A program made the translations under genes and the position numbers. Positions 19,646 to 41,537 of a DNA stretch of 64,000 nucleotides are shown here, piece after piece. Numbering within the stretch: position 1 is the first letter of the stretch; each line of letters starts with the position of its first letter. The notes under the pieces were generated by a model, which had not been told where the DNA came from, searched no databases, and saw only the letters and a program-made list of their open reading frames with translations. Origin of the DNA: Ceratodon purpureus (Eukaryota; Streptophyta; Bryopsida; Pseudoditrichales; Ditrichaceae); the NCBI GenBank assembly GCA_014871385.1, contig CM026428.1, forward strand, positions 1,778,602 to 1,842,601, written 5' to 3'.

Positions 19646-22600
19646 TCACAACATGCTACAATCGCTACTTCCACTCTCAGAACTAGATGACTCTGAATCT
19701 CCTTCTACAGCCTCGTCATCGACGAATAGAAGGGCCCTGGGATCAAAAGTAGTTGGCCGACTAGGAACATAAGTAAGGGCTTCAGATTGAAACGCCTGTG
19801 CTAAGTCCTCTGCGTAGTCCAGAAGTATGAAAGGCTGAATCGGGCTGGAATGAAGACGCCACGATGGAGTGGACACAGCTCTTGGCCGATGTGGCGGTGT
19901 TGCTGAAACTACTCTGCAATAGAAAACCGATTGTGGTTAGATCGAGTATGTAGAGCAGCAAAGAGAAGCAATGCTTGGATAATTTTGACAAAGAATAGAA
20001 GACTTACACCACTTATCAGGTCTTGGTCTCTTTGGAGGCGCTTCGTCTGCTGCTGCCGGCCTTGGAAGTTTAGGAGGGCCCATGGCGGATGGTCTAGCCA
20101 TGCACGGTTTGAGAATAGCACTGAATATGGCTTCGTCCTCCTCAAAAGCTAGAATGTGACGACCAATAGCCTGGGAAGCCTTGATGGAGGCCCCTAAAAC
20201 TCGGAGAGAAACAAAGAAATAAGAAATTGTAGAAAAAAAAAGAGGAATAATTAAGCAGAGATATGTATGAATAGTTACCTGTCCCTGCATTCCAATCAAG
20301 GACTATGTCGCCGGGCTTTGACAGCTCCTCAATTCTGCCCTGCATCATCTCAGGGGATTTCTCCCTTGGGCCTCTCCACGGCACCTCCCCATTCATGAGC
20401 TGAGATTCCACATCGGTGAAGTTGAAAATGGCATCACTCTCGGTAATGTTGAGGACCCCATGTATCAACTGGGATTTCTTCGTCTGGAAGGAGAAATTAC
20501 TGCCACTACGAACGTAGACGCGAATCCAGAACCGCATAGTCTGCACTCAAGCAAAACCAGTGAGTAAAATTAAGCGGAAGGGTTATCAGTAAGTAAAGAG
20601 AAGGGTATGTTTAGGGAAATTACCAAGTTCTCGGGGTTCGTAGGAGAAGTCAGGCCGAGTACATTGACGCCCCACCAGTCCTTGAAAAGCACAAAGTCAC
20701 CCAACCCAGCTTCTTCCTCGATATCCTTAACCACGCTCTGATCAGTGTTGTAGATGAGGCAGAGGGCACCATCCCTCTGCAGGTATGAATCTGCAAAACG
20801 GAAGATGTCGTACACATAATCCTTGGGGCGAGAGTCCTAAGGCGGAATACTCGTGCGGGGAACGGAAACGGATGGGGCGGGAAGATTCTCAGGGATGTCG
20901 GCAATGATCAAGTCGACTCCCAGATGGTCCTCTTGTTTGCAATAGTCCCCAACTCTGTTTTCGCGGCCTGCTCGAAACTTGAGGAAACAAGAAAGCAGAG
21001 TTACAAACTACAAAGCGAGTAGAGATGGCTGAATCCATTAAATGTCAAAATATCGGAACATACCTTGCGAATGAAGTCTTGAGTCTTGATCCAATCCGGG
21101 TCGCCGCCACCTTTTCTCTCGTGTCTCTTATTTTGCCGCAACATGGAATCCACAGATGAGTTGAAGACAGAAACATGTGTGGAAATCGAAGCTCCAGCGG
21201 AAGAAGTTGTTTGAGGATATAGTTTGGCCTTCCTCTGCTCAAGGAGACCTCTGGTGATCTCCGAAGCACTGATCGAGGAAGGAGCCGGCAAAGAAGCTGG
21301 AGAAGGGTTCGTAACGACAATACCCGGAGAGGGCTCTGGTGCCTTCTTTGCTGGCGCGGAAGACTCCGCACCAGTTTGCTGTGATGCCTCTGACTGAGAA
21401 CGCAGAGATTTCAGTCGCCTTCCTCTCCCTCTCTTCGGTGGTGGAGCAGAAGACTGATCCTGCTCTCCTTCACGACCTTCTGCATCATCCACGGAGTCCT
21501 CTACCACTACCTCACCCCCATCGTGTAGAGTCTTGACGTCCGCCTCTGAGTCAATCGTGAAACCACGAGAGCAATCAAGATACCAGCATCCCTCAAGCAA
21601 GTGAGGAGCTTTGTACCTTTTCAATTGTTGGGGAGAATAGATACACTCGTCCGAGGTTTTCGACGTCCAAGCAGTAAAGTACTTAGGGAGCTGCTGAACC
21701 TTGATTGCCCCCTTCAGAAGAAGCTCTCGCTTGAAGTACCTAAGTAAACCAATATGTAGAATGTTAGTATCAAAAAGATAAAGAGACCTTATTCTGGAAT
21801 TTGAATCTGATTAAAAGGAATGTATCGTACCGGTAAATAACCCGCTTGACAACCTGAGCGGTTCGAGGAAATTTAGCAAAAATGGACTTCTTGTCAAAGG
21901 GCTTATCAGCCTTATTTCCAATGAACGTAGGGAAGGCCTTGTCCCACAAGAGAATACGTGAACTCTCCACATAATCGCCCGGTTCTTGTACTTCAGGAAA
22001 GGCCTTCCAATTAATAACAAAATTCTCCACCTTGCATATGTCCTCGAATTCGTTGATGACGGCTTCCTCCAACTGTAATACAGAATTCAATTAATTAGCA
22101 ATGAGAGAGAATCGAGGAAGAGAAGAAAGGATCAGGTCATTGAAAAGGTTTTTAAGAAATTATATCCCAGCCCAGAATGAGGCCTTGTTCAACCATGGGT
22201 CAAATTCGGTATCCTTGAATTCAAGTGGTAGAAATCTGTAAGACAATCGGGAACTCAGAGATGAGTTCCACCACCTCAACCAACGAGCCTTGTATTTGGC
22301 CTCGACGGATGCTGGAACAATCTTCTAGAGCTTATCAAGTGACATCTCAGGTTTAGAGAAGTCACTGAAATGCCGATTAATCTGCAACAAGTAGAGGAGT
22401 TTTAGAAAATATGAATACGTAAATGTTGTTGTGATACAAAATACTGAACTCAGCCACGATGAGGGTCTCACTTTGTTGAGGAAGTCGTCACCATTCTTGG
22501 GATTTGCAATTGCCAAGTACTTGGTGAAGTCCTTCCTCTTAATCGATTCCACCATGTTGTTTGAAGCCGCATTCATGGCATCCCAAACACCAGTCGCGGT

Positions 22601-22753
22601 TTGGTCTTCAATGGGTGTTTTCTCCTTGTAGATTCTGGCAGCTTCGTCAGAAGCAACCACAATTTCTCGCTGGAACACAAAGTAATGTTTGAGGAACTTT
22701 ATGAAGCAGCGTAAATCAATTGCCGAATGGAAGCGTGAGGGGGGGAGGAATAA

Positions 22754-22830
22754 GTGCTTACACGGGGAAAGGTCGTATGTGAGCGGAGAGCGGAGAGCGG
22801 AGAGCAGAAACCGGAGAGCAGAAAATTGGA
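22754..22830. repeat. MULE-1 left target duplication and TIR
   Basis: GTGCTTACAC (22754-22763), then the terminus with three to four GGAGAGC heptamers. A subterminal block near 22983-23022 again has ATTAGGGCTGACGTCATCAT. 23040-23346 holds no gene. Confidence 0.85.
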
Positions 22831-23346
22831 AATTTTAGGACTAGTTCAGGGTTTAGTGTCGCCTTAGACTGCGCATTTTAAGCTCATATTTTGAAATATT
22901 TTTAAGAGATGTCACCCTAGGTTTAGGGTGTTGTGAACACATCCGCATAAAAAAAGATGTCACATGAGCAGACATACTCTCTTTCTAGTACAAAAATTAG
23001 GGCTGACGTCATCATGACCTCATGATTTAGAGGTTGTATACCATCCCCTTCATATCTAAACCCTTCCATACCTTTGAACCTGCTTGCACATTATCATCCA
23101 CCAAAATCAACACAAAAAGTAACTTCCAATTATGCTTGAAACCTGATAACAAAATGCAATGGACATACCACATACTAAGCAATTAGCTAAGAAACTTGCG
23201 GATCCAGAACAATGAAGGCGCATGCTTTTCATCTTGTTCAATTGTGCCTCTCCATTAATCGATGATGAAACTTGTACATGATATTGGCCGACCGGCGCTA
23301 GCACAATAGGGACAAATCTGGTCTTTAATTACAAGCTACACCAAAG

Positions 23347-23616
23347 CTAGGACAAGCTAAATCTAGAAGAACCCCGGATACGGGTTAGCTCTGCGGATGG
23401 CGGCTCCCAGGTGTACTTGCAGATGTCGACAAGTCGAGAAAACGCAACGCCTGCCTCATAGTTCCAAATTGCAGTGAGGTCCTTGGAGTACACGATGTTC
23501 TCCCTCAGAATTCGAGAGTACTCCTCCACCTCAGCCTCAATCTCCAGAATGACTCCGATGAAACGCACGTCCCCAAAGAAGCTCTTCATCTCCACCTCCG
23601 ACTGCGGCCGCTCCAT
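23347..23616 (-). CDS. Small acidic MULE-1 protein
   Basis: 89 aa from the ATG at 23616 (MERPQSEVEMKSFFGDVRFI). The upstream in-frame extension is low-complexity 5' leader and was not used. The protein is mostly helical by composition, with SRILRENIVYSKDL and SRLVDICKYTWEP segments. Function unknown. It is divergently transcribed from the gene at 24507, across a promoter region built of palindromes. A TATA-like TTTATAAG lies about 125 bp upstream, in the 23739-23757 palindrome. Confidence 0.45.
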   Translation of the reverse strand: MERPQSEVEMKSFFGDVRFIGVILEIEAEVEEYSRILRENIVYSKDLTAIWNYEAGVAFSRLVDICKYTWEPPSAELTRIRGSSRFSLS

Positions 23617-24506
23617 CCTGAAGTTCGAAAAAACAGAAAGAGAAGCAAAGAGGGAGAAGAATGAGAGGAGGGGAGAGCAGAGAAAGGAGAGAGTATGAGA
23701 AGGGAGGGAGGAGAGATTGTGAGGAATGGGGAGGAGGGGCGCCCTTATAAAGGGCGCCCCTCTCACCCAGGGTTAGGTCAGAGAAGGGGGCGCCGCAACG
23801 GGCGCCCCCCTCACCCAGGGTTAGGTCAGGGTGAGAGGGCCCCTTCATCAAGGGCGAGGCCCATGACGCCCATTGAAGAGGGCTCTCGGTGCCGAGAGCC
23901 CTGTGGCCGCAAGGGACGCCCGTGACCGAGAGCCCCTATGAAGGGGCTCTTAGTCACGGAGGCCCTTGCGGCCATAGGGCTCTCGGCACCGAGAGCCCTA
24001 TGGCCGGGAGGGACCCTCGGTACCGAGAGCCCCATCACCATGGGGGCTCTCGGTACCGAGAGCCCTTAGGGCGAGGCCGCCTTAGGGTGGCCACCGCCTT
24101 AGGGTGGCCACTGCCCCTAAGGAAGGCGGCGGCCTCTTCTCCTCCCTAGAGGGTTGGAAGGGTGGCGCCCTTCCAACCCTAGGTGGGGGCTCCCTTCCTT
24201 GTGATTGGGAAGGAGCGACCTTCCCAACCCTAAGGAGGGAGGGCTTCTCCCAGGGTTGGGAGGGAGCCGCCTCCCAGCCCTGGAAAGTGGAGGCGGCTGA
24301 AGGGGCTCGGTGGGCCCCATATAAGGGGTCCCACTCCCCCTCACAACTCACACTTCTCTCCTCACTTCTCTCTCTCACTCTCTCTCTCACTCTCTCTCTC
24401 ACTCTCTCCTCTCCATTCGGACTCTTCTCTCCTCTCCCTCTCTTCTTCTCTCTTCTCCTTCAATCTTCTCTTCCTTCCTCCTCTCCTCTCCCTCCTTTTT
24501 CTCAAG
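23617..24506. promoter_or_regulatory. Divergent promoter region made of GC-rich palindromes
   Basis: A TATA palindrome GCGCCCTTATAAAGGGCGC (23739-23757) faces the minus gene and CATATAAG (24318-24325) the plus gene. Between them lie five copies of the hairpin core CTCTCGGNRCCGAGAG or close variants (23880-24065). Further inverted repeats of the GGTTGGAAGGGTGGCGCCCT type occupy 24140-24290. 23760-23835 has a tandem duplication of GGGCGCCCCTCTCACCCAGG-like sequence. A CTCTCTCA-rich leader (24355-24505) precedes the plus ATG. Confidence 0.6.
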
Positions 24507-25016
24507 ATGGTTCGCAAGGTGGTGAAGGTGGCTTCCAAGGGGCAGTGCTCGAAGACTATTGGCAAGAAGAGGGGAAGGGGAGAATCCAGTTCTGGAGGAT
24601 CTATGGTGGAGGTGCCGAAGGTGGAGGTTCCTAAGGTGGAGATGCCGAAGGTGGAGGTGCCGAAGGAGGAGGTGCCGAATGTGGAGGTGCCAAAGGTGGA
24701 GATGCCCAAGGTGGAGGTGCCGAAGGAGGAGGTGTCGGAGGAGGAGGGAAATTTTGATGGAGCTCAATGGGTGCCTTATGGTCGTAGGGGAGATACACTC
24801 ATTCTCACCATCGTTGAATATGATGGGGAGACTGTCCATATGCAGATGGATGATGCTGAAGACTATGATTCCGATTCTCATCTCCATTGGTTGGGCTTCG
24901 AAGATCAGGAGGCGGCACAGGCTTATAGGCGGAAGTTGGAGGAAGATGCAACGGATGTGGTGGAGATCATAGCCCCGGAAAACAAATCAGATGTAGTTGA
25001 GGATGGTGTAGCCTAG
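24507..25016 (+). CDS. MULE-1 protein with VEVPK pentapeptide repeats
   Basis: 169 aa. Basic Lys/Arg start (MVRKVVKVASKGQCSKTIGK), then about ten tandem copies of the pentapeptide VE(V/M)PK (residues ~33-75) encoded by a 15-bp repeat. A short acidic domain follows (WVPYGRRGDTLILTIVEYDG, HLHWLGFEDQEAAQAYRRKL). Basic-repeat-acidic layout suggests a nuclear binding protein, which is inference. It has a clear TATA about 180 bp upstream and lies at the left side of MULE-1. No family recognised. Confidence 0.6.
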   Translation: MVRKVVKVASKGQCSKTIGKKRGRGESSSGGSMVEVPKVEVPKVEMPKVEVPKEEVPNVEVPKVEMPKVEVPKEEVSEEEGNFDGAQWVPYGRRGDTLILTIVEYDGETVHMQMDDAEDYDSDSHLHWLGFEDQEAAQAYRRKLEEDATDVVEIIAPENKSDVVEDGVA

Positions 25017-26973
25017 ACATTTGTAGGTGGTAGCCTAGAAATTGGCTAGGAATGTGTGCAAATTATTGAGGTACCGTGTTGCTTAGCGGAGTGGCGCCTC
25101 TTTGGCAGGTTCAACGCCCTTGTGTAGAGGTTTTTGAAAACCGTGTACCATTTTGTAAGTACTATAAATGCGAGTTATAACGACAACCTTAAAGTTGTTA
25201 TGTCTTTAATCTTAAATTTTTTGATCATTTTAATCCTTAATTTATTGATTTTAATTTCCTTTTCTTTCCCTTTATTATGCTATTTGTTTAATGTTTTTAC
25301 TTTTATTTTTTTATTCTTATTTATGCTTTGGTTCTGTAAATTAAACGAGTCCCGAGACCCGAGTCCCAAGTCTTAAGTCCCGAGTCCCGAGTCTTGAGTC
25401 CCGAGGCCCAACACCCGAGTCCCGAGACCCAAGTCCCCACTCCCGACTCTCGACTCCCGACTCCCGACTCCCCAGCCGCGACCCCCGACTCTTGCCGCGA
25501 CGCGGGACAAAGAGTCCCGCCGCGAGCAGGGACAGGGAGTCCCGCCGCGACGGGGGACAAGGAGTCCCCTTGGGCTCCCGAGGAACCCTTCCCCCACATA
25601 GTACTCTCTGTGGGAATCGGCAGACCCCCCCCTCCTGGGTCTAAGAGAGTTCCGAGACACACTTTTTTTTGGAAGACCACCCACCCTCCTTCCCTACCCC
25701 CCCCCCCGTCTCCCTGTCCCTCTCCCTCGCGGTCACTCCCGCTCCCTCTCCCTCTCCCTCTCCCGCGCCGTCACTCTCCCTCTCCCTGTCCCTCTCCCTC
25801 TCCCTCACTCCTTGTCCCTCTCCCTCTCCCTCACTCCCTGTCCCTCTCCCTCTCCCTCACTCCCTGTCCCTCTCCCTCTCCCTCTCCCTCTCTCCCTGTC
25901 CCTCCCCCTCTCCCTCTCCCTCTCCCTCTCCCTCACTCCCTCTCCCTCACTCCCTGTCCCTCTCCCTCACTCCCTCTCCCTCTCCCTGTCCCTCTCCCTC
26001 ACTCCCTGTCCCTCCCCTTGTCCCTCTCCCTCTCCCTCTCTCCCTGTCCCTCCCCTTGTCCCTCTCCCTCTCCCTCTCTCCCTGTCCCTCCCCTTGTCCC
26101 TCTCCCTCTCCCTCACTCCCTGTCCCTCTCCCTCTCCCTCGCGGTCACTCCCTCTCCCTCTCCCTCTCTCCCTGTCCCTCTCCCTCTCCCTTTCCCTCTC
26201 CCTCACTCCGTGTCCCTCTCCCTCTCCCTCGCGGTCACTCCCTCTCCCTCACTCCCTGTCCCTCACTCCCTCTCCCTCTCCCTGTCCCTCTCCCTCACTC
26301 CCTCTCCCTCACTCCCTGTCCCTCTCCCTCACTCCCTCTCCCTCTCCCTGTCCCTCTCCCTCACTCCCTGTCCCTCTCCCTCTCCCTCTCCCTCACTCCC
26401 TGTCCCTCTCCCTCTCCCTCACTCCCTGTCCCTCTCCCTCTCCCTCACTCTCTGTCCCGCTCCCTCTCCCTCACTCCCTGTCCCTCTCCCTCTCCCTCAC
26501 TCCCTGTCCCTCTCCCTCTCCCTCACTCCCTGTCCCTCACTCTAGGTCCTTTTGATTCAAGACCTTTCACTGTTTTTGTTTTTGTTTTTTTTTTGATTTA
26601 ATGTTTTATCTGTAATTTCTCTTTTGAGAAGGGGTTCTACTTCTCATTTTATTTTAATTTTTAAATTGTTTCCCCTCCACTGTTTGGCGTCTCCCGGTGT
26701 ATGAGAACTTTCGTGGTAAGAAGGGAGGGAAATTCAGAAATTGGAATTCCAAAATTGAAAGAATGGAATCCAATGGAGATGGGTTAATGCGATACCTATG
26801 CAACAAGGAGTGGTACAACATAGGACAGTAACCAACACAATCATGACTAATTGGTTCAATAATCATGATTCACATAACCCTCCTTTCCTCTTTTAATTTA
26901 AATTTTTAAATTTTTACAACAATACCAAAATTTTAAACTAAGTAAATATTGGTGTCAATAAAATAGTTTGGTC
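25017..26973. repeat. 3' intergenic region with CCCTCT minisatellite
   Basis: 25345-25500 is a tandem array of GAGTCCC/ACTCCCG heptamers. 25690-26545 is about 0.85 kb of almost pure pyrimidine, built from CTCCCTCTCCCTCACTCCCT units with CTGTCCCTC variants. The long overlapping ORFs on it (Ser-Leu-Pro repeats) exist only because the repeat lacks stops. The remainder is AT-rich. The purine strand could form G-rich or triplex structures. Confidence 0.8.
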
Positions 26974-29900
26974 TTAATATCGGCGGTAAATATCAAAATA
27001 GTCTGAGTCTTCGTCACCTAGATCCAATGTATTATCAACAGCAGCCTCCAAATGTAGGTACTCCTTAACTGCCTGGTCATATCTCCGCTTCGTCTTTCGT
27101 TCCTTTGGGGAAGGTAATGCAGCCTGGTGTCTTGCTGCCTGCTCAGCATAAACAGGCATGCGGGAGAACGTAGCTACCGGCGACAAGGGAACTCGGGCGA
27201 CTCTGCATACGAAGGCAGTATCTGAGAAAAGACGATTCTAAGCCTGACTGTTAGATTCAAAAAATGTCCAAAATTTCTGTCTAATACGAGACCTGACGAC
27301 TACACTCACTGCCTGCCCTTCGGTCGGATTTCCGGAGGATGGTAAGCCAGATCTTCTTCTGCAAGCTGTATCAGAGGATCCTCGTCATCGTCGTCGTCGT
27401 CGTCGTCATCGTCTTCTTGGTCACTGTGATGGCCCCCGGCAGGTGCACGGGGAACCAAGTCAGATCTCATCGGAGCAAGAAGTTCCTTGAATATGTCCTC
27501 GTCCTCCTCAATAGCGACAATGTGACGGCCACGATTGCGACAGACTTGTATGGAGTCGCCTACAAAAGTCGACAAAGAAGGGAGTTAGTATTAAGGCAAA
27601 CTACAATCTGGAAGTACGGGAAAGTCAGCATCATAAGACTGTAAGGCCGTACTTGTTCCCGCCGTGAGGTCAACCACAATGCCTCCAGGGGATGTGCAAG
27701 ACAAGACGAGGCAGCCCCAGAAATACTCATCAAGTTCCTTAGGACCACGCCAAGGCCGATCGCCGTTCATCTTCACAGTCTTGGCGTTAGCCGAGTTCAT
27801 AAGGACGTTTCCCTTAACAACGTCAATATCTCCACTGTGAGTTGGCTTCAGAGTGAAGGCAGAGTTCCGAGTGCCGGTGGGGAGAGATGCTGGCCTGGGA
27901 TCCGGAGTGCATCTGACATAAAGACCCACCCTAAAAAGATTAGTGGTCTCAACCCTAGATGGAACCTGAAGCGGCAGTATGTTGAAGCCGGTCCACTCCT
28001 TAAACATCTTGAACCCAAGGCTTGGGCAAAAGGACCTGATAGTCTTTCTTGTGGAGTTATCGTCAGTGTAAACAAAGACAAGGGCGCCATCATCGTGCAA
28101 GAAAGTATGGGCAAACACGAACGTGTTCTTGAACCAGTCCTTGTCAAGGACATTCCACTTAGGGACATCCGAGGCCGTTCTTGATATGCCTGGTACCGGG
28201 GAGTTGTCCGGAACCTGGGCTACTACAAGGTCCACCATTCCGTCCTTCGTCTGATTCCTCCCATAAACCCGGCAGGATTTACCATAATTGCACTGGCTTG
28301 CGAACTTGTACACGGCATCGAACATCGACTTATTGATCATACCATTCATGATCAAATCGAAAGTATCGTACTCCACCTCCTTCGGTTCGTCAACCAGTCG
28401 AAACTCAGGCTGAGACAGAGTAAAATCTGTCCCAGAGGAGTTCCCTGATGGCGAAGGTCCATCCAGTCTACGTCGGGACTTGGGAGATTTAGGGGACCGT
28501 TGTCCTTTTCGGTTATCAACAAGTGACCCTGCAACTGAACCAGTGCCACCGTCTTGTGAGGCAGTGGTCCTCTGCGCTACGCGTCTTCCTAGCTGCGCCT
28601 GCGCTTTCTTTCTCCTCTGACCAACTTTCGGGTCCTCCGGTGCAGCCTCTTCGACGTCAGGTACTTCCTCCGGAGTGGCGTTGATGACACCTAGTCGTCT
28701 CTTCAGATCTTCCTCCTCGGCGGGGCAGAAAGTCTTCGCACACTCGATGTACCAACCGCATTCCTTCAGATGCGCTGACGGATAAGTGATCTTCTGATAC
28801 TCCGTGAAAATAAACGAGTCATGGCCAGGCTCAGTTTGGGTATCCATCCAATCTGGTTCTTCCGTGATCGCCTTCTTTGGCATCAACTCCCTCCTGTAGT
28901 ACCTATAAAACAGAGGGAATTGGGTCAGATTTCTTCATCTGCGCAAAGACCAAACTAAACAAGAGCATACCAAGGTTTTGATACTCACCTATAGATAAAC
29001 CGGCTGACGATGAGATTGCCCTTAGGCACCTGGTTCCAAGTGTCGTTCCGCTGGAATGCATGTTTCCCGCCAAAGACAGTTGGAAAAGCTTTTTGCCACA
29101 CCTTCTTCTTCCAGTAGTTCAGGTACACTTGCCAGGACTTGACTTCCTTAGTCCAGTCTGGAAGCGGATATTCAAGCAGAATAGGCTCAATCTTCTCCGT
29201 GATCTCGTCCTCCAGCAGCGCATAGAAGCATGCTTTGTGCAGCCAAGCATGAAGTTGAGACTCACTGCACGAAGTCCTCGGAAAACTGTTTGCAGCCCTG
29301 GTATTATCAGAGCCGTTCCACATCTTCAGCCAACGCACTTTATACATCCCCTTGACGTTGGTGGTCGCAATCAGCTGCAGTTTGTCTAGCCCCATCTTGC
29401 ACTTCTGATTAGGGCGATGGTTGTAATGGTTCCGAATCTGAAACGACGTAAACCCAAACAACGTAAGAAACAAAGTCATGCCATAACAAACGCTCATCAG
29501 GCCATTCCACCATTGCAGCTACACCACATCCTGGAGGCGTTAAATAACGTCATTGACCAAAACTATCGATCCTTCCAGGAAATCTGCAAATTCAAATGGC
29601 TTATCAATGCCGAACATGACGAGCCACCTGTCTTTGCAGCTCCCCTAGAGGGTGAAAATAACTTGGACAGTAACGTTCTATTGGTCATCATCTGAAATTT
29701 AAACACATCATACCTAAACTTCTAATTTGTAAAGCAACAATCAAGAAGCAATATAACACCCAAAATTGACTAAGTGTCTAGAAACCCGACCGCGCCTTCG
29801 AGGCCCGAAAGGGGCTCTCGGTACCGAGAGACCCTTCCCAGCCTCGAAGGCGCGGTCGGGATTTGGTACCTGGCGACATATTCTGCCCCTTTGATCCAAA

Positions 29901-32900
29901 AACCCGACCGCGCCTTAAAGGCCCGTAAAGGCTTCTCGGCACCGAGAGCCCCTTCCTGGCCTCACTGGAGCGGTCGGGTTTCTGGCCCAAAGGGGCAGAA
30001 TCCGGCCCCCTTTTATTGTAAAAGGGGACGAAATGGCCCATCAGGCATAAAGAGCCCTATAAATGGGTTCTTTATCTGCCTGGTGGGCTCTTTCAACCTC
30101 CCTTTGGGCTCAAAGGGGCCCGTTAAGGCCCGTTCGGGCCGAAAACCCGACCGCGCCCTTGAGGCCGGGAGGGGCTTCTCGGCACCGAGAGACCCCTCCG
30201 GGCCTCATTGGCGCAGTCGGGTTTCCGGCCCCAAGGGGCCTTATTGAGCCCCTCTCAGCCCAAGAGGGGCCCAATAAGGCCCCTTCGTGCCGGAAACCCG
30301 ACCGCGCCCATGAGGCCGGGAAGGGTCTCTCGGCACCGAGAAGCCCTTCCGGGCCTCATGGGCGCGGTCGGGTTTCCGGCTCCAAGGGGCCTAAAGAGGC
30401 CTCTCAGTGGCTCAAAGGGGCCCGTTAAGGCCCCTTCGTGCCGGAAACCCGACCGCGCCCATGAGGCCGGGAAGGGTCTCTCGGCACCGAGAAGCCCTTC
30501 CGGGCCTCATGGGCGCGGTCGGGTTTCCGGCTCCAAGGGGCCTAAAGAGGCCTCTCAGTGGCTCAAAGGGGCCCGTTAAGGCCCCTTCGTGCCGGAAACC
30601 CGACCGCGCCCATGAGGCCGGGAGGGGTCTCTCGGCACCGAGAAGCCCCTCCGGGCGTCATGGGCGCGGTCGGGGAACCGGCCCCAAGGGGCCTTATTGG
30701 GCCCTCTCAGCCCAAGAGGGGCCCGATAAGGCCCCTTCGGGTTGGTTCCCCGACCGCGCCGGTGAGGCCGGGAGGGGTCTCTCGGCACCGAGAGACCCCT
30801 GCAAGCCTCATGGGCGCGGTCGGGATACCGGCCCCAAGGGGCCTTTACAGGCCCCTCTCAACCCAAGAGGGGCCCGATAAGGCCCCTTCAGGCCGGTTTC
30901 CCGACCGCGCCCATGAGGCCCGGAGGGGCTTCCCGTTGCAAAACCTGACCAAAGCCAGGGCCTCAACCGGGCCTCAATAAGGAAAAACAAACTCACTAAG
31001 TAAAAAAAGTCTAGAATCTACATACCTCTTCAATAAAGCCCTTCCCGTTCTTAGGATTTGCAACGGCTTGGAGCTTGCTAAAAAGCTTGTTGAGGGCTTC
31101 TTTTTTCTTTAGAATCTGATTGAATATAACCTCACGCAAACGCTCCCCTGTTTGCTTGTTCAGCGGCGTCGTCTGCTTGTAGTGATTGCATGCTTCCTCG
31201 CCTGCACCTGCTATCTCTTCCTGCCGCATTAAACCAGGAAAGTTAGTTTTTTTTAATTATTTCGACACAATCTACAAAACAGGCAGGAGTAAAAACATTT
31301 AAGGGATTTACCGAGAAGAGGTGGTTCACCATTGTCTCTGAAGACAATGGATACCAAGTATTGGTCGTCTTTGCCTTCTCCTTCAGGTACTCTTCCTTGC
31401 TGAGGATATTCTCAAAATACGTTATAGGTAGCAGCCCATACTTGTGCACCATCTCGATCTGGTGCAAGACATTTGTCCTGACATGCGCCTGCTCATTTGA
31501 CCTGTCACGTCGTATGATGTTAGATATCACGAACTTAATCCAATGAAATCGACGACCAAGCATTGAGTAAAAACTTAAAGATCTAGCCTCGGAATGGTAC
31601 TTACTTGTTAACTGAATGCATGGCCCTGAGAATACTTGGGTAAAGATTCTTATGGATCTCAAGGACCAAGCAATCAGGCATTCCGTGAAGGCGATGCCAC
31701 TCCATGTTTCCCATCTTCGCTTCATCGATGTAGCGCTTCCAGGCCGTGTAGCGGTGATTGCCATCGTAAATGAAAAACATCTTTCCTTGAAGTGGCTTCA
31801 AATCCGGGTCAGAATTCAATTCTAAGTCGAATTCATTATCCAACTGATCCCATGCAGAACTCCATTCCCATCTGATTTCATCTGTAACAAGCTTCTCTCT
31901 CTGTTTCGAATCGGTCAGAGCCACATAGAACACTGCTGACCCTACTCTGTACCCGGACCGGAACTCGCTCTGCAACCGTAAGACCTCAGACTCCAACACT
32001 GGCCTGACTTCGGGCATACTAACCATGCGGCATAAAGGAATTCTCAACCTCGAGAACTTCTCTATCGGCTGTTTCCGACTCCGGTTGACTGCAACAAAGG
32101 TATCGTTCTCGAACTCCTTGATCATCCGAGCCTCTATCTCCGCTGGTGTCACACCCTCGTCCTTTCCTAGAGGGTTTTCCGGCAATTCCTCCCCCTTCTT
32201 AACCCGTGGCCATGTCAGCTTAGCCGGCGGCGTCTCTGCATCGTCCCCCTCTTCCTCTACTTCATCCATCAAGGGATCTTTCTCTTCCGCCTCCACCTCG
32301 GCTGTCTTCGCCCTCTTCGGTGAAGGTGTACTCTCCATTGTATGCTCCGCACCATCGTTCTGGCCCTCGGCCATCGCCGTCTCCTTGTTGACATCGCCAG
32401 CCAGTTCCTCCCGTCCAGACTGCTCTGTCGCCTGCAGGTCCATGCTCTCGTCCTGCCCCTCCCCTCCTTGCCTCTGCCCAGCAGCCACGAACGCCGTCTC
32501 TTCTACGGCCGCCTTCTGCGTCTCCTCCACAGCTGTCCCCTGCGTCTCCTCCACAGCCGTCTCCTGCGCCTCCTCCTCTCCTTCTTCTTGCAACAATGTG
32601 TCGCAACCTAAGTAGTCAGCTGAGTTGAACCCTTTCTAAAACCCTGGATACATACAGTGGAACTGGACGCTCTGACGATGCCCTAATACCCTTTCCCGCC
32701 CTTACTTCAAGGAGTACTATCTTACCTGCTCTCGCTGGACAGCGGACTCCGCAATTCTAACCTTCTTAGACTTCTTGTGCTTTTCTGGACGCTCCTCCCT
32801 ACTTGGCCGCTTCTTACTTTTCCTCTCACTTTCTGATGACCTCTCATCTCCTGCCCTCTTCTTTGTACCCTTCTTCTCACTTGCCGGTGACTTCTCAGTC

Positions 32901-32977
32901 CCGGACGACCTCTCCTCCCCATGGCCCTTCTTAGACCTACCCTTCTTCAACTTCCCTCCATACTTAGGGTTAAACAT
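26974..32977 (-). CDS. ParB-like domain fused to N6/N4-type DNA methyltransferase-like protein
   Basis: Minus-strand exons with GT-AG borders and matching phases: 32607-31605, 31501-31312, 31220-31026, 29437-28989, 28902-27653, 27559-27310, 27202-26974. A Lys-rich 84-codon ORF (32977-32726) is a likely first exon, but its junction phase does not fit the next exon, so the start is unresolved. Order: Glu-rich segment; ParB/Srx-like domain with FFIYDGNHRYTAW (about 31742-31780); helical middle; spacer; methyltransferase fold with VDLVVAQVPDN at the catalytic-motif position (about 28201-28236), FLHDDGALVFVYTDD, GGIVVDLTAGT (motif I) and GRHIVAIEEDEDIF. The order IV...I matches beta-type amino-methyltransferases. 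The canonical (D/N/S)PP(Y/F/W) is replaced by QVPD, so catalysis is doubtful. The final exons are Asp-rich. No frame break in 1.18 kb of codons; ParB-methyltransferase fusions are otherwise known from phages and bacteria. Confidence 0.75.
29760..30960. repeat. Array of long GC-rich hairpins inside an intron
   Basis: Lies in the 1.6-kb intron between the exons ending at 31026 and starting at 29437. Seven full units and one partial are centred near 29823, 29937, 30180, 30333, 30482, 30634 and 30783. Spacing is about 150 bp in the right half. Each unit is an inverted repeat with arms of about 40 bp: CCCGACCGCGCCCATGAGGC on one side, its complement on the other, around CTCTCGGCACCGAGAG. The spacers (AAGGGGCCTTATTGGGCCC types) are themselves palindromic. 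Units at 30333 and 30482 are almost identical, suggesting recent tandem duplication. ORFs across it are repeat artefacts. Confidence 0.9.
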
Positions 32978-33111
32978 GGCGACAAACTATGTAGATCGAC
33001 CCGCACCCTACAAACCCTAACGACGTCACCCTAAACCGAACCCTGACTGTACTACACTCACACACACAAAAACCGCAACGCAGTGTAAGCCAGGCACAGC
33101 AAAGCTGCGAG

Positions 33112-33543
33112 CTAAGAACACCACGAGGGGGCACAGAGAGACTGAGCATGGAGCTTCTCCCCCTTCTTATACCTGGCCTCAAGAGCAAGGGCGCACAAAC
33201 TAATGATGTCTACAATTAACACACGTACCTCTAAGCACTCAGGTATGGTGAGGGGAATTGATTGCTGGAGCGGCGTCACACACTGCGATGGCGATGTCTC
33301 ACACAACCCGCCCCCCTTTGCTACTCGAGGTACTGCTATGACGGGAAGTTTTGCGAAGTCCTTACTCAATGCCTTCACGGTCCCGCCAAACCCCTCAACA
33401 CGTCGCCTCCGTTCCTCAGCCTGTCTCATCCTCGAAGCTGTCAGCTGCCTCGAGTTTGAGAACAGCTTGTCTCTCCCCTTCCTCTTTCTCTTTCTCTCTC
33501 TCATAGGAGTGGCGACCACTTCAGTTGAATCATCGACATGCAT
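33112..33543 (-). CDS. Small basic MULE-1 protein
   Basis: 143 aa from the ATG at 33543 (MHVDDSTEVVATPMRERKRK). Contains a strong nuclear-localisation-like RERKRKRKGRDK and an Arg-rich helix (MRQAEERRRRVEGF). The C-terminal half is hydrophobic (VRVLIVDIISLCALAL). It lies between the methyltransferase-like gene and the divergently oriented transposase. Opposite-strand ORFs of similar length exist, so coding strand is not certain. No family recognised. Confidence 0.4.
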   Translation of the reverse strand: MHVDDSTEVVATPMRERKRKRKGRDKLFSNSRQLTASRMRQAEERRRRVEGFGGTVKALSKDFAKLPVIAVPRVAKGGGLCETSPSQCVTPLQQSIPLTIPECLEVRVLIVDIISLCALALEARYKKGEKLHAQSLCAPSWCS

Positions 33544-33976
33544 CTGTGACACTATCCTGCTCTCTCGCCACACTAAACATCCCGGAGAATGCCACTCATT
33601 GCTTTAATATATCTCTCGTCAGGATGAGTACTGTTATTTTTGACGCTTCTAACTGTTTTGGCGCCCTTCCATATAAAGATTTCCTTAACTCAAAATTCCT
33701 AGAATTGGCGGCTGAGATCCCTCCCCTTTTTCCCATGTCAGGGAATTTACTCTGTCACGGTGTACCAGCCCTAATTATATTCAGTGGCAATCAAGAGACG
33801 GCTGGTCCTTATTATAGAGCCTTCTAGTGGCTGGTGATTTGTCGCATGATCGTCCTTTCAAGTAAACATAGGGGGCCCCTAAACCCAGTCATCATCCCCT
33901 TTTAGTCCGTCAGGTGTTCATCCTCTCTTCAACATTCGTCTCTGTTATGACAAGTTGAGATTAGCAAATACAAACG

Positions 33977-33983
33977 TATAAAT
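33977..33983 (+). promoter_or_regulatory. TATA box of the transposase gene
   Basis: TATAAAT 78 bp upstream of the transposase ATG. 33610-33960 contains no convincing gene. Confidence 0.5.
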
Positions 33984-34060
33984 GCAGTGAAAAATGCTGC
34001 AACAACCCTCTCAATTCTGCACTTCGTCGATTGTGTCGCTCTTTCTGATCTGCCTACGCC

Positions 34061-37000
34061 ATGGCGCTACCTGTCCCGGCTCAGTTCCAAGGTTCCGTTT
34101 TTCTTTACGCACATGGCGTTGGAATTCCGCTTACGTTTCGGGTAGATGATGATGGGTACGCTCTTGTGTCATGTCAGCGTCTTAGTCTTAGGTTCCAGTA
34201 TCAAGAGGACTCCATTAGCGTTGAGGAGGAGATCTGTGATGAGCTCACTGGAGAGATCACACATACACTAGGCCAGGTCTCATTTGTGGACAAGAGGGAT
34301 TGTAAGATGTGGAGGCTCACGCCTGGTAGGTTTAGAGTCTACGGTCTCACGGATTCCCAGATGGCTGCGTCCACCGAGATCCTGACCCCCAGACGGTCCT
34401 CTACTTGCACCATCCAGACACCAGGAGCGGTGGACGTGAAGTTGAAGACCGACTCTGGCTCAACGACGCCTCTCCTTGCCAAAGTAAAAGTTGAGCCGGG
34501 ATTAGATACCCCGGTTATCAATCTCTCCTCTGACGATGACGGGAGCCCGCGGACTCGAAAGTCAGCCGGATATATACCCGCCAGAGAACATGTCCGTCCC
34601 GAGGCGGCTGTGGACACTCGCGCTTTGGATCTCATGGCAATGCCCCCTTCTTTGGACGAGTCCGTCAGTATTGTATCGCTGTTGAAGAAGCTTACTTCGC
34701 GGCCGGGTAAGAAGAACCTCCTGAAGAAGTTAGACTACGACTCTATCCGACATGAGAGAGTGGAGTATCTGCCGGCGGAGTTCAACGGCGACGTCATCTT
34801 TGAACTGCCACCTGTGGGATCCTCTGCCTCACGATCAGCCGCCAAGTCCATGCAGGGCATGGATAAGAGGTACGATGGGCACGTGTGGACGAAGACGATC
34901 ACCACCAACATCTCCAACAATATGGGCCTCTCTTTCCGGTCGTCTTCATGTGCGGGCCATTTGCGGTGCGAGAACAAGGACTGCGGGTACCTTGAGCGCG
35001 ACCATCGCATCTTCGACGTGAATGAGACCGAATTCGACGGATGCACGTTGCAGGCGTTTGTTGTGGGTGAAGAGGCTCCGAAGGAATCCACTTTGGTCTG
35101 CAAGGTATGTAAGGAACCTCCCGTATGCGTTGCCACTTGTAGAGCAAGGATATTTTATGTTTCGGGCAAGGGCAATAGGACACGGGCGTGCATCCACGTA
35201 GGATCCCACACCCACCCTGTCAAGGTGGGAGACTACCGTGACATTAAGGTCGAGATAAGTAGTTTGATAGAAAATCAGATCGAGAACACGCCCAAGGCTA
35301 CGAAGAGCGCCGTTGTACTAGAGGCCAGCAAGGACCTGATTGGTAGTTTTTTATTACGATCGGAGGATGATCCACCGAAGACGCTCACCGTTCAAGAGCT
35401 TTACCCGGTGCTCGATAGGTGCAAAGATATGGCGTCGCCTAACATTCGGAACAAGGTCGTTACTTTTAGGTACCTCAGACGTTTCGGGGTGATGGACAGC
35501 ATAACGAAGCTGCGGGGACTCAGCACATGGGATTTCGTACAGAACAACATGTTCCCTGGCCAAGGGTCAGAATTTGACAAGGTCTACGTGTTCAAAATGT
35601 CCGAGATTGGGCCCGCGAGTGGTGTCGATCTTGTGAAGAGAATGCAGCCGACGGGGGATCTGGAGCTTTCGTGGATGATGTTTGACCACGTCAAGCGCGT
35701 GCGAAATTGGACAACCATGGCATGCCACGTGTATGACTCCACGTACTGCCGGGTCATGACGATCGCCTGCTGCGACATGCAATCTGAAGACGCCGAAGCC
35801 CAGATGGTGTTCTGGAAGAACCTCAACGCAGTCATGAAGAGACACGGCGTGGAGAAGCCGAACTTCAAGGGATTCATGGCGGACAGCGCCCAGGCTAATT
35901 GGAATGCGGTCCGGGTGGTATACGGCAATGGCAACAAGGAAGATCAAATGGAGGACCGGGAGAGGACCTGTCAATTTCATTGGACCCAGTCGATGGTGAA
36001 TCATACCGAGAAATACGTCGCCGAAGAGTTGTGGGATCAACACAAAAAGATGTGTCAGCAATACAGGAAGGCAAGATCAATGGCGGAGGCCGATGCTCTT
36101 TATCACGGGATAAGGGCTTGGTGGGCATCTGCGGGGGCAGTGTCCGAATCTGCCTTATCGAAACTTGACTTATGGCTCTCATTCTGGCATTATCGATATC
36201 GCCAATGGGGTGGATTCATGACCGAGGTAACCACGCCACCCACTGTTGTTTTCTCTTTCCCCGTACATGCTCATCGTAGTGACTCATTAATCGTTCATCC
36301 ATTATTGGATCTCAGAAATTCTCGGAGGCGGAACTCGCGGAGATGCCGTCCTGCAACCTCGCGGAGACGGTTCACAACAAGTGGCTTCAAGCATCCGGGA
36401 ATAATGGCAGTGATCTGTACGTCGCCACCATCGACGACTTTATCCGTGCTTTTCTACAGGTTGTGAATTACTACCAGTACCTAAAGGGCGACGTGGGGGG
36501 TACTGGCCCGAGCAAGAAGGAGCTGAGGCTACGATCCGCAGAACGTAGGGCGAAGAAAACGGGCGATCCAAAGGTTTTGGAGGACCCCATGCTGGACATG
36601 CCTGGCGCCGATGAGTTTTGTACGCGTGTCCCACATCTGCCAGGGGAGGAGGTGTTTGGTTCGCGGAAACGCAAGCCCGACTTGCCTCTTGGCGCTGAGG
36701 AAGAGTCGCATAGGCCAGATAAGGTAAACTTCTCGCATCCTCGAGTCAGTACCAGACCTGTCAGAGCTTGCGTGGCTCCAATGCCGGTCATCGTCGAGGA
36801 AGGCGACCGCGAGGTTGAAGCTGCTCATCATCCATCGCCACAGATGGATTCCGTCATCGCTTCACCCTTCAGCGAAGGAGGCGTGCGTCATGTCTCGGCT
36901 GTGGAGGAGACCAGAGTGAACGTGAAGCAGTGGCACATTGCTCGACTGCCAAAGACTTCCGCAAAGTGCTGTTGGGCGCAGAGGGCCGTCACCAATAAGA

Positions 37001-37818
37001 AATGCACAGAGAGGATTGTCAGGGGTGCTAAGCCCACCCCTGCCCCTACCTATAGCGGTGTATGGCACAGCAGAAGGAGGAACCTCGACATAACCGAGGA
37101 CTTCTTTTTCTGCCCCGACGACATTGAGAGGTGCGTGAAGGGGACAAGGCGCAAATGGGTGAACAGGTACGATTTATCGAGAAAGGAAGGATTTCCACCC
37201 ATCCCAAGAGTATGGCCTGTGAAACTTGGGACGAACCTGAAAGACTGTGAGATTCTTGCCTTGGAGGAGGCAGGGTTTCAGCTCCCACAGAAGAAACCAG
37301 TCTCGCCTAGGAGGCTCTTCACCTCCGACCCCCCTCCGCGAAACCTAGACTCGGTTCCGGTGCCGGCAGAGGCTGACCGGTACCCTGGAAAGAGAGACGG
37401 GAAGATTGTCAAGCGGACTGCGACTCGTCCTAATCCGCAGCAGAGGCTGTCCATGGCCTCCTCCGACTCCCTCAAAGCACGACTGCGGTCTATCACCATG
37501 ATTCCTCATCCCGGCCACGGCTGCATCATCGCGCTAGACTCCGGTGCTCCTCCCAATGTGACGAAATACCAGATCACCATCAGCTCCCTCCCCGGCTGCA
37601 CATGCCCAGCATTCAAGAAAACAATGACGAAGTTCCGTGGGAGGGTTCAATTTACATACTGCAAGCATATGTATTACGTCCTCTTAAAGGTATGCCTGCG
37701 TGACCCGGATGTGGAACTTTTCATCCATGCACCGACCTTTAGCTTCAACGAAGTGAAGTTACTCCTCGAGAGTGGAATCTTGACACACCCCTTGGCGGAG
37801 CCCTACGAGACAGTCTAG
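34061..37818 (+). CDS. Mutator-like (MULE) transposase with SWIM zinc finger
   Basis: Two exons: 34061-36226 (722 codons) and 36316-37818, with an 89-bp GT-AG intron and phase 0 on both sides, giving about 1,222 aa. The first third includes a Cys/His domain of WRKY-GCM1/FLYWCH type (CAGHLRCENKDCGY...CKVCKEPP...HVGSHTHPV). The MULE catalytic region follows: VYDSTY (first Asp), FMADSAQANWNAV (second Asp), CQFHWTQSM, with the third acidic residue in the following helical part. After a long linker comes a SWIM finger, CTCPAF...YCKHMYYV (about 37598-37680). Transposases of this family cut at the TIRs and leave 8-11 bp duplications, as seen around MULE-1. Open throughout. Pieces of related copies occur at 2969-3546 and 17180-17540. 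Confidence 0.9.
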
Positions 37819-38038
37819 AATTTGCCCTTTCTAATTTAGACCATCACGACGTCGCAGTGGTACACTGCTTTTGTTTTTAATCGAGTCTGACTATGACTCA
37901 GTAATACATGATTTGATTTGCCATTAATTTTAAAAAAAGTGACACCTGGCCGAGTAATTGTCGTTGCACATCTTGTCCACCATTCAGTTTCCACAAATAA
38001 TTACTTTATTACCATGCACTTTCTTAAAGAATATTACA

Positions 38039-38482
38039 TCACATGAATCGGATGCGGCTTGGCCGTCCTTTTGATATTTCTACATAGCTACTTTTAGTTT
38101 CCATCGGACGGACGACGCATTCATCCAGACGTGGACCTGAGGAAGAACCTCGACCAGAGCGAGGAATTTTAATGACTGGACTGGACCCCACACGTCCACA
38201 GATTGCGGATCTCGAATAAGTCCCCGGAGGAATTCTGCCAACCCTGGAATAAGCATGGCTTGGAAGGGACTTGGACTCAACCTCCTTAGTGGGCGATTTG
38301 TCGAGCGCCCCCGTAACAGTACATGGCACCACATCAAGCCCACCGCTATGTCCACCTTCTACCGGTTTAGGAGGCGATGGTCGTGGCTTCAGCAACAACT
38401 CGTCACCCTCATCTTCAAGAAAAGGTTCAAATGGCCCACCCTCATCACCTAGGGATACAACCCCAAAACCGACTTCCTCCAT
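38039..38482 (-). CDS. Conserved MULE right-end accessory protein
   Basis: 147 aa from the ATG at 38482 (MEEVGFGVVSLGDEGGPFEP); the in-frame upstream ATG at 38569 is less likely because the MULE-3 homologue starts at the later Met. Conserved blocks: SLGDEGGPFEPFLEDEGDE and SHAYSRVGRIPPGTYSR. The C-terminal half is basic and Ser-rich. It lies between transposase 3' end and right TIR, on the opposite strand, exactly as in MULE-3 (16477-16808). Conservation across diverged copies implies selection as part of the transposon. Function unknown; a DNA-binding or anti-silencing helper, as in other multigene MULEs, is a guess. Confidence 0.6.
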   Translation of the reverse strand: MEEVGFGVVSLGDEGGPFEPFLEDEGDELLLKPRPSPPKPVEGGHSGGLDVVPCTVTGALDKSPTKEVESKSLPSHAYSRVGRIPPGTYSRSAICGRVGSSPVIKIPRSGRGSSSGPRLDECVVRPMETKSSYVEISKGRPSRIRFM

Positions 38483-38759
38483 GGCGAAAACGGTATGCAC
38501 CCCACCCCAAACCCTGAACATTCCACCAGCTAACAAACGAGAGTGAGAGAGCAAAGGCTCCAGAGTCATCCATTTATTCCAGTGAAATCACAAAAGACCC
38601 TGTCATTCACGCCCTGCCGCACAATTTCGAGACCAGTACTTGGTGGGCAGACCCAAAAAACCCTTTAACAGAACCCGGAAAGTATCCCACATTCAAGGAA
38701 TATTCCTTGGAATATTCGAAAAGATTCTCTTTTCATCATCTTTTATTCTATTTTTAATA

Positions 38760-38878
38760 AAAAAATTTCCATTTTTAGAATCTGCTCTCCATTTTCCGCT
38801 CTAAGAGCAGAAAATCTCTGCTCTCCGCTCTCCGCTCTCCGCTCACCGCTCACATACAAGCTTCCCTCGTGCTTACAC
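38760..38878. repeat. MULE-1 right TIR and target duplication
   Basis: CTCTCCGCTCTCCGCTCACC (38827-38846 approx.) and CGCTCACATACAAGCTTCCC end the element. GTGCTTACAC at 38869-38878 duplicates 22754-22763. Unlike the other ends, no TGACGTCA block was seen within 300 bp. Confidence 0.85.
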
Positions 38879-39889
38879 GATAAAGAAAAGCCATGAATAC
38901 TTTTGTTGGCAAGGTAAACCAGGATGGAGTAGCTGGTTTGTGATTCAATGCTAAAGCATACTCCTGTGGTGAAAGCAGATCCTTGAATTCCTCCAATTTC
39001 ATGACGCCATAGGAGCGAATACGATAAAGTTTTGCCGGAATATTACTCTTCACGTGATCATTTTCCGTAGACCTGTACAAATAGACGGAAGTTAATAATA
39101 AGCATAAAGTACGAGTTGAATCGGCGTTCAAGAGGTGTAGACAAAGTAGAGGGAGTTATTTCTTACCAGTTAATGTCATGCATGGCATGAAGAAGGTTTC
39201 CAACATGACCGCGTGGGTCAAGAACAATGCAATGCACAGAGATGTGCCACGCTGGATCGTCGCTGTGATGCTTCTTGATATGTCTGTACCATGCGGCAAG
39301 GCGATGGTTACCTTCCCAGACATAGAACATCTTCCCAGAAAACTCCTTCCAATCCGAGTCGGCCAAGAGCTCATCTTCAAAAGCATCATTAACTTTTTGC
39401 CAACACGGGCTCCAGTCAGCCTTGATCTCCTCAGTGACATCGGTTGTCTTCTCTTTGTGGTTGTAGATGGAAATGTACATGACACGGTCTCCATCTCTAT
39501 AGCCTTTGACAAACTCTCGCTCCAAATGTTGAACTCCCATTTCTCCTCCAGGGCGCACTCTTGCCATTGAGAGCATTCTGCAAAGGGAAACTTGGATACG
39601 CGACTTTGTCTTTGGAAGTATTCGGAGTTTGTTGATAACGCCTACGGAGTCCTGTTTGTGTTGTACACGATGTCCCAATTCACTGTCCTCTGCATTCGTA
39701 AAATCAGGAGGACAAGATGGTGCTGGCAACATATCCTGTGTCTGAGTTACCTGCAAGAAGTACTACATTTTCAAATTTGATTCCAAGATAAGGATCATAA
39801 CAAGTAATGCAATTATGAAAAAGAATAGAACAATAGCTTCATGTACTGATACCAATCGTCATTAGTAGAAAGGTGTACATAGGCAACTA

Positions 39890-41535
39890 TGTAATTGGTA
39901 GAATTTACAAATAGTGGTAAGTCATGGGAATAGGTCTTTTCGTTTAGCTTTTCACGTAACTAAAGGTCACTGTAGTAAGTAAAGAATAATAGAATGCAAA
40001 GTATTTCCTTAAAAGAATCTCTTTATAACTCTAATGTCTTAATTACCCCAAGTCACATATCACCCAAGTAATCCATACTCTCAATTGGTTCAAAGGTAAT
40101 GGGAGTTCAATTTGACAAGTACCATCTCTCGGTTTATTGCCATCACTCCCTTCCAAGTTCAATTAGACAATGCATTTATTATGCATATGCAAGTTCATTC
40201 ATTACTAGGTTAGAATCTAGTGTTCAACCTATTTATGCCTATGAATGATGCTTTGGGATATGTTATGATAGATTAACTTATCTCAAGCAACTCCTTGCTT
40301 GTCTTCATCTTTTTCCTCCATCCATTGCATTTCAAATAGACATGTAATCACTGTCTACTCATTCACATTCAATCACACTCCAAGTCTACCATTCATCACA
40401 ACTATGCTTCTCAATTGTATTACTCAATTACAGTGACTGCACTATTGCTCAGTTGAATACATTCAAGTTTTATTATAATGAGAACTAATAATCACTAAGG
40501 CTGATCACTCCTTAATAATTAATGCCACTTTTATCCATCAATGTACTCAATCTATCTTCCATAAACTCTAAGTCATTCTCAGTCTTCTATTTCAGATGGC
40601 CAATCTAATTTAAAAGACTATCAAGTAATACTCAGTTCACTGTTCCAATACTCACATGGAACTCTCATTCTCCATAATTCCCATTCACAACAATGCAATG
40701 TCAATTGGACAAACTGTTGTGTTTATTTTCTAGAATTTCTATTCTCCAATTCACTCAGTGACTCTTCCTTCGTTCTGAGTTCAAATAGACAAATTCCCTC
40801 ACTGTTCACTTTGCTCCATCAGCATCTTCATGTTCAAATAGACAGTATCCAGTGGTCAAATAGACAGTATCCAGTGTGAGCCACCACATTCACTGTAACT
40901 CTCACCAACTCTCCACTGTGTCAATTAGACATGGTCCATGCAAGTCAAGTTGACAATGTATGCATGCCCATGGATGCATACCGAACCACCATCTTGTCCA
41001 TTTGACCAGCGATAACTAGACATTATGCAGCAAGCAATCTGAATTCAATTGTCAATTAGACAGTAGCCAATCTGCTCCAGTTCTCCATTCTGATTCTACC
41101 ATTCTACAGATTAATACACTGTGCATCAAAGCTATAGTTCAATTTGACAAAGAGCATTGTGAATCAAATATACAGTGAGCTACTCAGAGTCAAGTTGACA
41201 ATCAATTAGACAATGGAATTCTATTTTTATATTTTTTACATAATGTGATTATCACTCACACAGTGTTGTGTGGTGTGGTGAAGTAATTCTTTCTTCTTCC
41301 TTAATTCCTAGTTATGCCTTAATTTCTAAAAGGTGTGCCTGTACGTAGAGTCAATTTGACAAGTCGTGTCTCTAGGTAGGGTCATGTCCCCTGAATTCTA
41401 CACTATTGTCCATTTGACTCTCAACCAGATTTCTACAGCCACTATCTACTTGGATGTCAAATTGACATGATAACTTGATCCTATTTACACTGTTTTTACT
41501 AAAAAGGGACTTTTCTCAAAAAAAGTCAGCTCACA
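39890..41535 (-). repeat. Complete 3' LTR of element B (1,646 bp)
   Basis: TG...CA ends, with the target repeat AACTA outside and a polypurine tract inside. It carries about a dozen perfect GTCNANTNGAC palindromes, e.g. 40700-40710, 40855-40865, 40920-40930, 40944-40954, 40996-41006, 41051-41061. Confidence 0.85.
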
Positions 41536-41537
41536 TA

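Follow-up and report, generated by a model that had tools for sequence, protein, structure and literature searches.

Fusions of a ParB domain to an N6_N4_Mtase domain exist in bacteria and phages. The ParB fold is a palindrome-loading clamp, with ParB and Noc acting as CTP-dependent clamps at parS sites, and canonical beta-class amino-methyltransferases carry the catalytic motif (D/N/S)PP(Y/F/W). Gene capture is common in Mutator-like elements. Transposons of brown, green and red algae are reported to encode ParB-methyltransferase proteins (PMC12477816), the green and red cases being cited there, in the accessible text, from Iyer 2011 and Petroll 2025. The same text describes the Ectocarpus element Sola1-1_Ec32 as a giant 21.5 kb DNA transposon encoding a 1104-aa protein with ParB-like and N4C/N6A methyltransferase domains, for which its authors suggest self-modification (PMC12477816). 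A ParB-methyltransferase transposon gene is, as a kind, already known, which contradicts the suggestion, in a preliminary description of the locus analysed here, that such a gene was undescribed. The VANC anti-silencing proteins of Arabidopsis VANDAL Mutator elements bind tandemly expanded short motifs in noncoding parts and introns (PMC5735166, accessible portion).

The locus lies in a 64,000-nt stretch of the Ceratodon purpureus genome (the window). It resembles Sola1-1_Ec32, as far as the accessible description of the latter extends, in being a giant DNA transposon with a gene on the strand opposite to the transposase that encodes ParB-like and methyltransferase domains. Compared by description, Sola1-1_Ec32 is a brown algal element with a Sola transposase and a domain predicted to methylate, whereas the moss element is Mutator-like with a SWIM region, has another residue in place of the catalytic aromatic wherever the motif was found and carries palindrome arrays. 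With the VANC/VANDAL system, again within the accessible portion of that source, it shares an accessory protein in a Mutator-like element and a noncoding, tandemly repeated short motif that extends into accessory-gene introns and varies by family; the VANC21 motif is not palindromic, however, and the moss protein has ParB/Srx and methyltransferase folds instead, and working like VANC would denote functional likeness, with no claim of homology. The bacterial and phage fusions and the YhdJ/CcrM-type beta-class enzymes share its domain types and the order of motif IV followed by motif I, but YhdJ keeps DPPY, whereas the moss gene has introns, a long middle part and DIPE. Our literature search, with subscription papers mostly outside its reach, returned no moss ParB-methyltransferase transposon and none of these palindromes; to the extent of this search, what is new is the occurrence in a Mutator-like element of a moss, the conserved change of the motif and the TCGGNNCCGA arrays.

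The element, its gene pair and an older relative

The ParB-methyltransferase (ParB-MTase) gene of the element, copy A, comprises eight exons on the minus strand, from an ATG at 32977 to a stop ending at 26974, with GT-AG introns throughout and one open frame of 1281 aa (Table 1); the multi-exon gene proposed earlier for 26974–32977 was recovered exactly. Head to head with it, on the opposite strand, lies a transposase of two exons and 1222 aa. Pfam returned a weak SWIM match in the transposase (E 0.019–0.053, below cut-off) and no match to the MULE domain. Mutator elements produce 8–11 bp target site duplications (TSDs) and often encode SWIM fingers (PMC6446971, accessible portion). 'Mutator-like' is accordingly used as a reasoned label for a probable affiliation, based on the TSD, the terminal inverted repeats (TIRs) and the weak SWIM match; of the earlier proposal that the gene is cargo of such an element, carriage between TIRs and TSDs stands firmly, the Mutator part in this qualified form.

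Table 1. Positions of the element, its genes and the related copy B in the window.
Feature	Position	Strand	Basis
Whole transposon, 16,105 bp	22764–38868		TIRs and TSD; joined flanks rebuild copy B exon 3/intron 3 boundary
Left 10-bp TSD GTGCTTACAC	22754–22763		Same as 38869–38878; only two occurrences in window
Right 10-bp TSD GTGCTTACAC	38869–38878		Perfect match to left
Left TIR, begins GGGGAAAGGTCGTATGTG at 22764	22764–22804	+	Alignment to right end
Right TIR	38824–38868	-	Alignment to left end
Left-arm palindrome cluster: TCTCGGNNCCGAGA (3) and one more TCGGTACCGA core	23884–24061		0.0006 expected in left arm
Transposase exon 1, DDE-like region (by eye)	34061–36226	+	Many near-identical genomic copies
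Transposase exon 2, SWIM-type CxC..CxH	36316–37818	+	Pfam, by-sequence reading
Copy A exon 1, Lys/Ser-rich start	32726–32977	-	Gene model
Copy A exon 2, acidic linker and ParB/Srx-like domain (YDGNHRYTAW)	31605–32635	-	Gene model, AlphaFold, structure comparison
Copy A exon 3	31312–31501	-	Gene model
Copy A exon 4	31026–31220	-	Gene model
Copy A intron 4, with ~151-bp tandem array holding 7 palindromes (29816–30793)	29438–31025	-	Repeat and palindrome scans
Copy A exon 5	28989–29437	-	Gene model; border with exon 4 also in copy B
Copy A exon 6, methyltransferase-like domain, QVPDN (motif IV position), VVDLTAGT (motif I)	27653–28902	-	Gene model, Pfam, hhalign
Copy A exon 7, RHIVAIEED, acidic motif after motif I	27310–27559	-	Gene model
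Copy A exon 8	26974–27202	-	Gene model
Copy B 5' part: ParB-like exon 39167–39750 and exon 38877–39072	38877–39750	-	Comparison with copy A
Copy B 3' part: seven exon pieces, methyltransferase-like, DIPEN motif, two in-frame stops	20009–22669	-	Comparison with copy A

Because its flanks, once joined, restore an exon–intron border of copy B, the element must have jumped into this older related gene. Copy B (39750–20009, minus strand) is colinear with copy A at 27–39% identity in aligned pieces, with best E values of 6e-33 for the ParB exon and 1e-15 for the methyltransferase exon. In our gene model, five intron positions are common to both copies in the same phases (2,0,0,2,1), the strongest sequence evidence that copy A is probably spliced in vivo as modelled; the copy B model contains three introns beyond these five. 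Copy B is a pseudogene, as its frame contains two stops and one donor site has been lost. The two diverged copies noted earlier are thus both present, but do not ride together as cargo of a single element: the decayed copy is the insertion site of the element that carries the intact one.

Exons 4–8 were inspected, where covered, in seven other family copies, in four of which exon 4 is absent or cut. L002, L005 and L008 read openly, free of the altered acceptor site of L006 and the 2-nt deletion of L007, and no read-through was possible in L003 and L004. The right end of the element was located in all seven other copies, the left end in one of seven in the first stretches and in one of four upon a second look. 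A perfect 10-bp TSD was present in two of the three copies with both ends located (the window and the C2 copy) and absent from the third (C1).

TIR starts like that of the studied element also occur at 17846 (+), 58408 (+) and 2968 (minus) and mark further elements with this type of end; the first two precede 901-bp stretches (17863–18763 and 58439–59339) that are 98.9% identical, giving spans of 17846–18763 and 58408–59339. SWIM-part fragments of related transposases, 67–79% identical, lie on the minus strand at 3570–2965 and 17563–17184 as nested remnants. A long, imperfect C/T-rich repeat array occupies 25588–26545 in the left arm of the element, and left-arm length seems variable among copies. 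Direct repeats at 40498–41535 and 53529–54566 (99.7% identical) surround gag/pol-like ORFs (46168–52653, minus), making 40498–54566 a probable young LTR retrotransposon, and an 841-aa ORF at 61036–63561 (minus) resembles a hAT transposase.

Predicted domains and the altered catalytic motif

AlphaFold modelled the ParB/Srx-like domain with a pLDDT of 88.3, and 30 of the 32 best structural rows were named ParB, Noc, KorB, PadC, SerK, SbnI or sulfiredoxin, the other two being uncharacterised. The model thus assigns the domain, by overall fold, to the ParB/Srx superfamily, as had been proposed from the sequence. A G-x-x-R type motif is present, reading GNHR in 54 of 61 relatives, GNHC in two and GNHQ in two, and was not found in three. 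Pfam ParBc gave no match at E 10, where DUF1015 alone aligned (E 0.044) at the GNHR stretch. The domain shares with the ParB/Noc clamps and parS the fold, the G-N-H-R motif and palindromic candidate sites; unlike in these clamps, no helix-turn-helix was identified in the ParB-MTase protein.

For the second domain, Pfam N6_N4_Mtase matched copy B at 30.5 bits (cut-off 26.7; E 4e-7), over profile positions 161–219 of 221 only, and copy A at 20.8 bits, below cut-off; among ten other relatives, six matched below cut-off and four, two of them ParB exons, gave no match. A PHROG DNA methyltransferase profile matched at 6.5e-9, and hhalign aligned the domain to YhdJ over 197 columns (E 2e-4, probability 47%) with motif IV before motif I. 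AlphaFold performed poorly on the methyltransferase exon with a four-row alignment (pLDDT 36.8), and that model was not used as fold evidence. The profile matches point to a beta-class amino-methyltransferase-type domain, in agreement with the fold first suggested.

To locate the catalytic motif, a pattern in which the P and the LPVP-like context after it are invariant was run on 31 sources. Matches were obtained in 25 (DIPE 20, DVPE 3, DLPE 1, DIPK 1), 13 of them from the C. purpureus genome itself; the six sources that did not match are fragments with no such region visible. An aromatic residue occupies the fourth position in none of the 25 finds and an acidic residue in 24, and QVPD is present in all 30 copies of copy-A exon 6, window included. 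The alteration reported beforehand for copy A (QVPD) and copy B (DIPE) is therefore upheld, with the consensus [D/Q][I/V/L]P[E/D/K] replacing DPPY. Relatives covering the SAM site show the pattern D..A[GAS][TV]G followed by EED. In copy A, the initial D of the catalytic motif is missing too, as is the final G of motif I. Since the motif change is kept at ~30% identity, it is not attributable to decay; function would have shifted, or catalysis been lost, early in the lineage.

The domain alignments hold 17 and 61 relatives, apparently exons of intron-containing genes. Residues 200–1281 of copy A had no match among 5.8 billion proteins, probably because length limits drop exon fragments, and a pattern search of viral contigs was without match. 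Prokaryote genomes yielded a single match, on a 4.7-kb contig of a cyanobacterial MAG (L071, CADCWO010000058.1), rejected as a prokaryotic relative because its similar exon-split pattern suggests that the MAG is contaminated with eukaryotic DNA. Weak matches to calpain, glycosidase, BsuBI/PstI and the like were dismissed as chance.

Family copies, selection and palindrome arrays

The assembly searched comprises 362,488,568 bp, with one contig (C6) of 110,524,308 bp. Beyond the window, at least 36 places match 2.4–3.0 kb of the gene region at 92–99%, and many transposase rows in the genome show 100% identity along 479 aa, indicating that the family was recently active. Among 51 near-full-length copy-A-type methyltransferase exon rows (at least 88% identity, out of 228 matches), a divergent transposase of the same type lies within 60 kb of 41 and within 15 kb of 30, at 6.4–7.9 kb in 29; the other ten have none within 60 kb. 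At locus F2 (C5), where the transposase is 48% identical, the head-to-head gene pair is still kept.

Exon 6 is free of stops in all 30 copies compared, window included, and their 33 synonymous, 42 nonsynonymous and 0 stop changes correspond to 0.53 of the neutral ratio (P=0.005); as the copies compared were the top-scoring ones, the sample is biased toward open frames and against stops and changes, and one copy has a 1-nt gap. Changes common to at least two copies gave 10 to 8 (P=0.018), and the absence of stops in the 30 copies is not significant by itself (2.4 expected, P=0.09). The exon-6 counts thus carry a signal of purifying selection on the ParB-MTase gene. Stops occur in 5 of 14 near-full-length rows on the 110-Mb contig vs none of 37 on other contigs, a skew on the large contig (C6, 110.5 Mb) that might fit a poorly recombining sex chromosome. 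The C. purpureus U and V chromosomes are larger than 100 Mb and account for ~30% of 360 Mb (PMC8000587, accessible portion).

The palindrome TCTCGGNNCCGAGA occurs ten times in the window (0.00 expected), always within the element, with three occurrences in the left arm, seven in the intron 4 array and none in the right arm. All eight copy-A loci read, window included, contain 4–11 TCTCGGNNCCGAGA in the array, and the palindrome is invariant in the five units compared. F2, F3 and F4 are ~18.9-kb stretches rather than delimited elements. F2 contains TGTCGGATCCGACA eight times and TCTCGGATTTCCGAGA five times; two of these palindromes are in its left part, and the remaining eleven recur with a ~150-bp period in the stretch separating exons 4 and 5. 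The F4 stretch, which does not extend to exon 4, holds 28 palindromes, of which 25 sit in a ~150-bp array immediately upstream of exon 5 and the other three in the left part. F2 and F4 are closely related, at 92.7% over 4.6 kb, and blastn of copy A against F2 found no array DNA in common. TCGGNNCCGA arrays with a ~150-bp period are thus found in the same intron in two families with unrelated array DNA. At a copy-B-like locus, TCGGCTCCGA arrays lie upstream of each of two genes, outside intron 4. TCGG alone, of the 256 possible four-base arms spaced by NN, is seen at least five times in all four loci, two to six arms reaching five occurrences in any single locus, the NN spacing having been chosen after the first cases were seen.

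Genome-wide, TCTCGGNNCCGAGA was counted 2005 times vs 15 for the reversed pattern and TGTCGGATCCGACA 591 times vs 0, numbers that track element copy number. Among the first 50 of the 591 TGTCGGATCCGACA places, a listed ParB-MTase gene is no more than 15 kb away in 32 cases and no more than 30 kb away in 42, vs 0.29 and 0.58 expected for randomly placed sites, and TGTCGGATCCGACA was found within 15 kb of all eight ParB-MTase genes examined. The first 50 listed TCTCGGNNCCGAGA places fall in two copy-A elements (22) and elsewhere (28); neither of two clusters outside copy A has such a gene or transposase in the 9.5 kb examined. Within the F4 array, the palindrome ranks just 22 of 137 windows for conservation. 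TCTCGGCACCGAGA and TGTCGGATCCGACA are candidate family-specific binding sequences, and TCGGNNCCGA palindromes may be the ParB-MTase protein's own landing sites. Motif arrays in an element's own noncoding DNA, a VANC-type trait, are present in ParB-MTase elements as candidate sites, and they lend support to the idea that the protein binds or reads its own DNA.

Candidate roles of the protein

The explanation we favour is that the gene would be a long-standing second gene in a group of large Mutator-like DNA transposons and that its product would recognise the element's own DNA. The ParB/Srx-like domain would load at the TCGGNNCCGA palindrome arrays of intron 4 and the left arm, and the SAM-methyltransferase fold, its catalytic aromatic replaced nearly always by an acidic residue, would act as a reader or binder or as an altered enzyme. 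Most likely, the protein would protect the element from silencing, or mark it for the transposase, like VANC for VANDAL. Binding of the protein to the element that encodes it, with shielding or marking as the outcome, is suggested by the combination of VANC-type motif arrays with a palindrome-loading ParB clamp; DNA binding, SAM use and anti-silencing are activities that we infer. Self-recognition through palindromes, with VANC-like anti-silencing and an altered or lost methylating step, is a tentative reading, plausible at somewhat under even confidence. Against it stand the ten of 51 rows that have no divergent transposase within 60 kb, the two TCTCGGNNCCGAGA clusters outside copy A that have no such gene or transposase in the 9.5 kb examined, the upstream rather than intronic TCGGCTCCGA arrays and the lack of an identified helix-turn-helix. 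The palindromes could also be ordinary satellite copied along with the elements, their counts following copy number; their conservation rank in F4 is low, the NN spacing is post hoc, and F2 and F4 are close kin. The choice of the 30 exon-6 copies as top scorers favours open frames.

A bolder version, which we regard as rather doubtful, would be a eukaryotic parS-like system, in which a ParB-fold clamp with a methyltransferase fold re-purposed by the conserved Y-to-E change loads on nucleosome-length (~150 bp) TCGGNNCCGA arrays and resets chromatin or DNA methylation across the element; palindrome arms and protein would co-evolve within each family.

Alternatively, the protein could be a transposition co-factor that binds subterminal and internal palindromes and bridges the ends or recruits the transposase, with no role in silencing. 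The head-to-head pairing with the transposase and the left-arm cluster, ~1.1 kb from one end, speak for such a role, but the larger array sits mid-element in an intron, away from the ends, and the right arm of the window element contains no TCTCGGNNCCGAGA; we consider it unlikely. An active DNA methyltransferase that modifies adenine or cytosine at the palindromes despite DIPE, and thereby marks its own element as proposed for the algal proteins, is quite unlikely: the fold and SAM-site pattern of relatives showing these parts, the acidic residue kept in 24 of 25 finds, which suggests a constrained pocket, and the self-modification suggested by the Ectocarpus authors in the accessible text (PMC12477816) agree with it, but the (D/N/S)PP(Y/F/W) aromatic is missing from all 25 and copy A is further missing the initial D of that motif and the final G of motif I. 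Least probable is a captured ParB-MTase gene hitch-hiking beside incidental satellite DNA, since purifying selection, introns and motif common to diverged copies, retention of the gene where the transposase is just 48% identical and the 0/37 stops on other contigs oppose it, notwithstanding gene capture by Mutator-like elements as generally known, the 5/14 stops on the 110-Mb contig and F4 palindromes hardly better kept than the rest of their array.

Collectively, these findings extend ParB-methyltransferase transposon genes to a land plant, the moss C. purpureus, and reveal a methylation motif that was altered and then kept across deep divergence. The palindromes provide a concrete candidate binding site, by which recognition of the element by its own protein may be tested in one binding assay.
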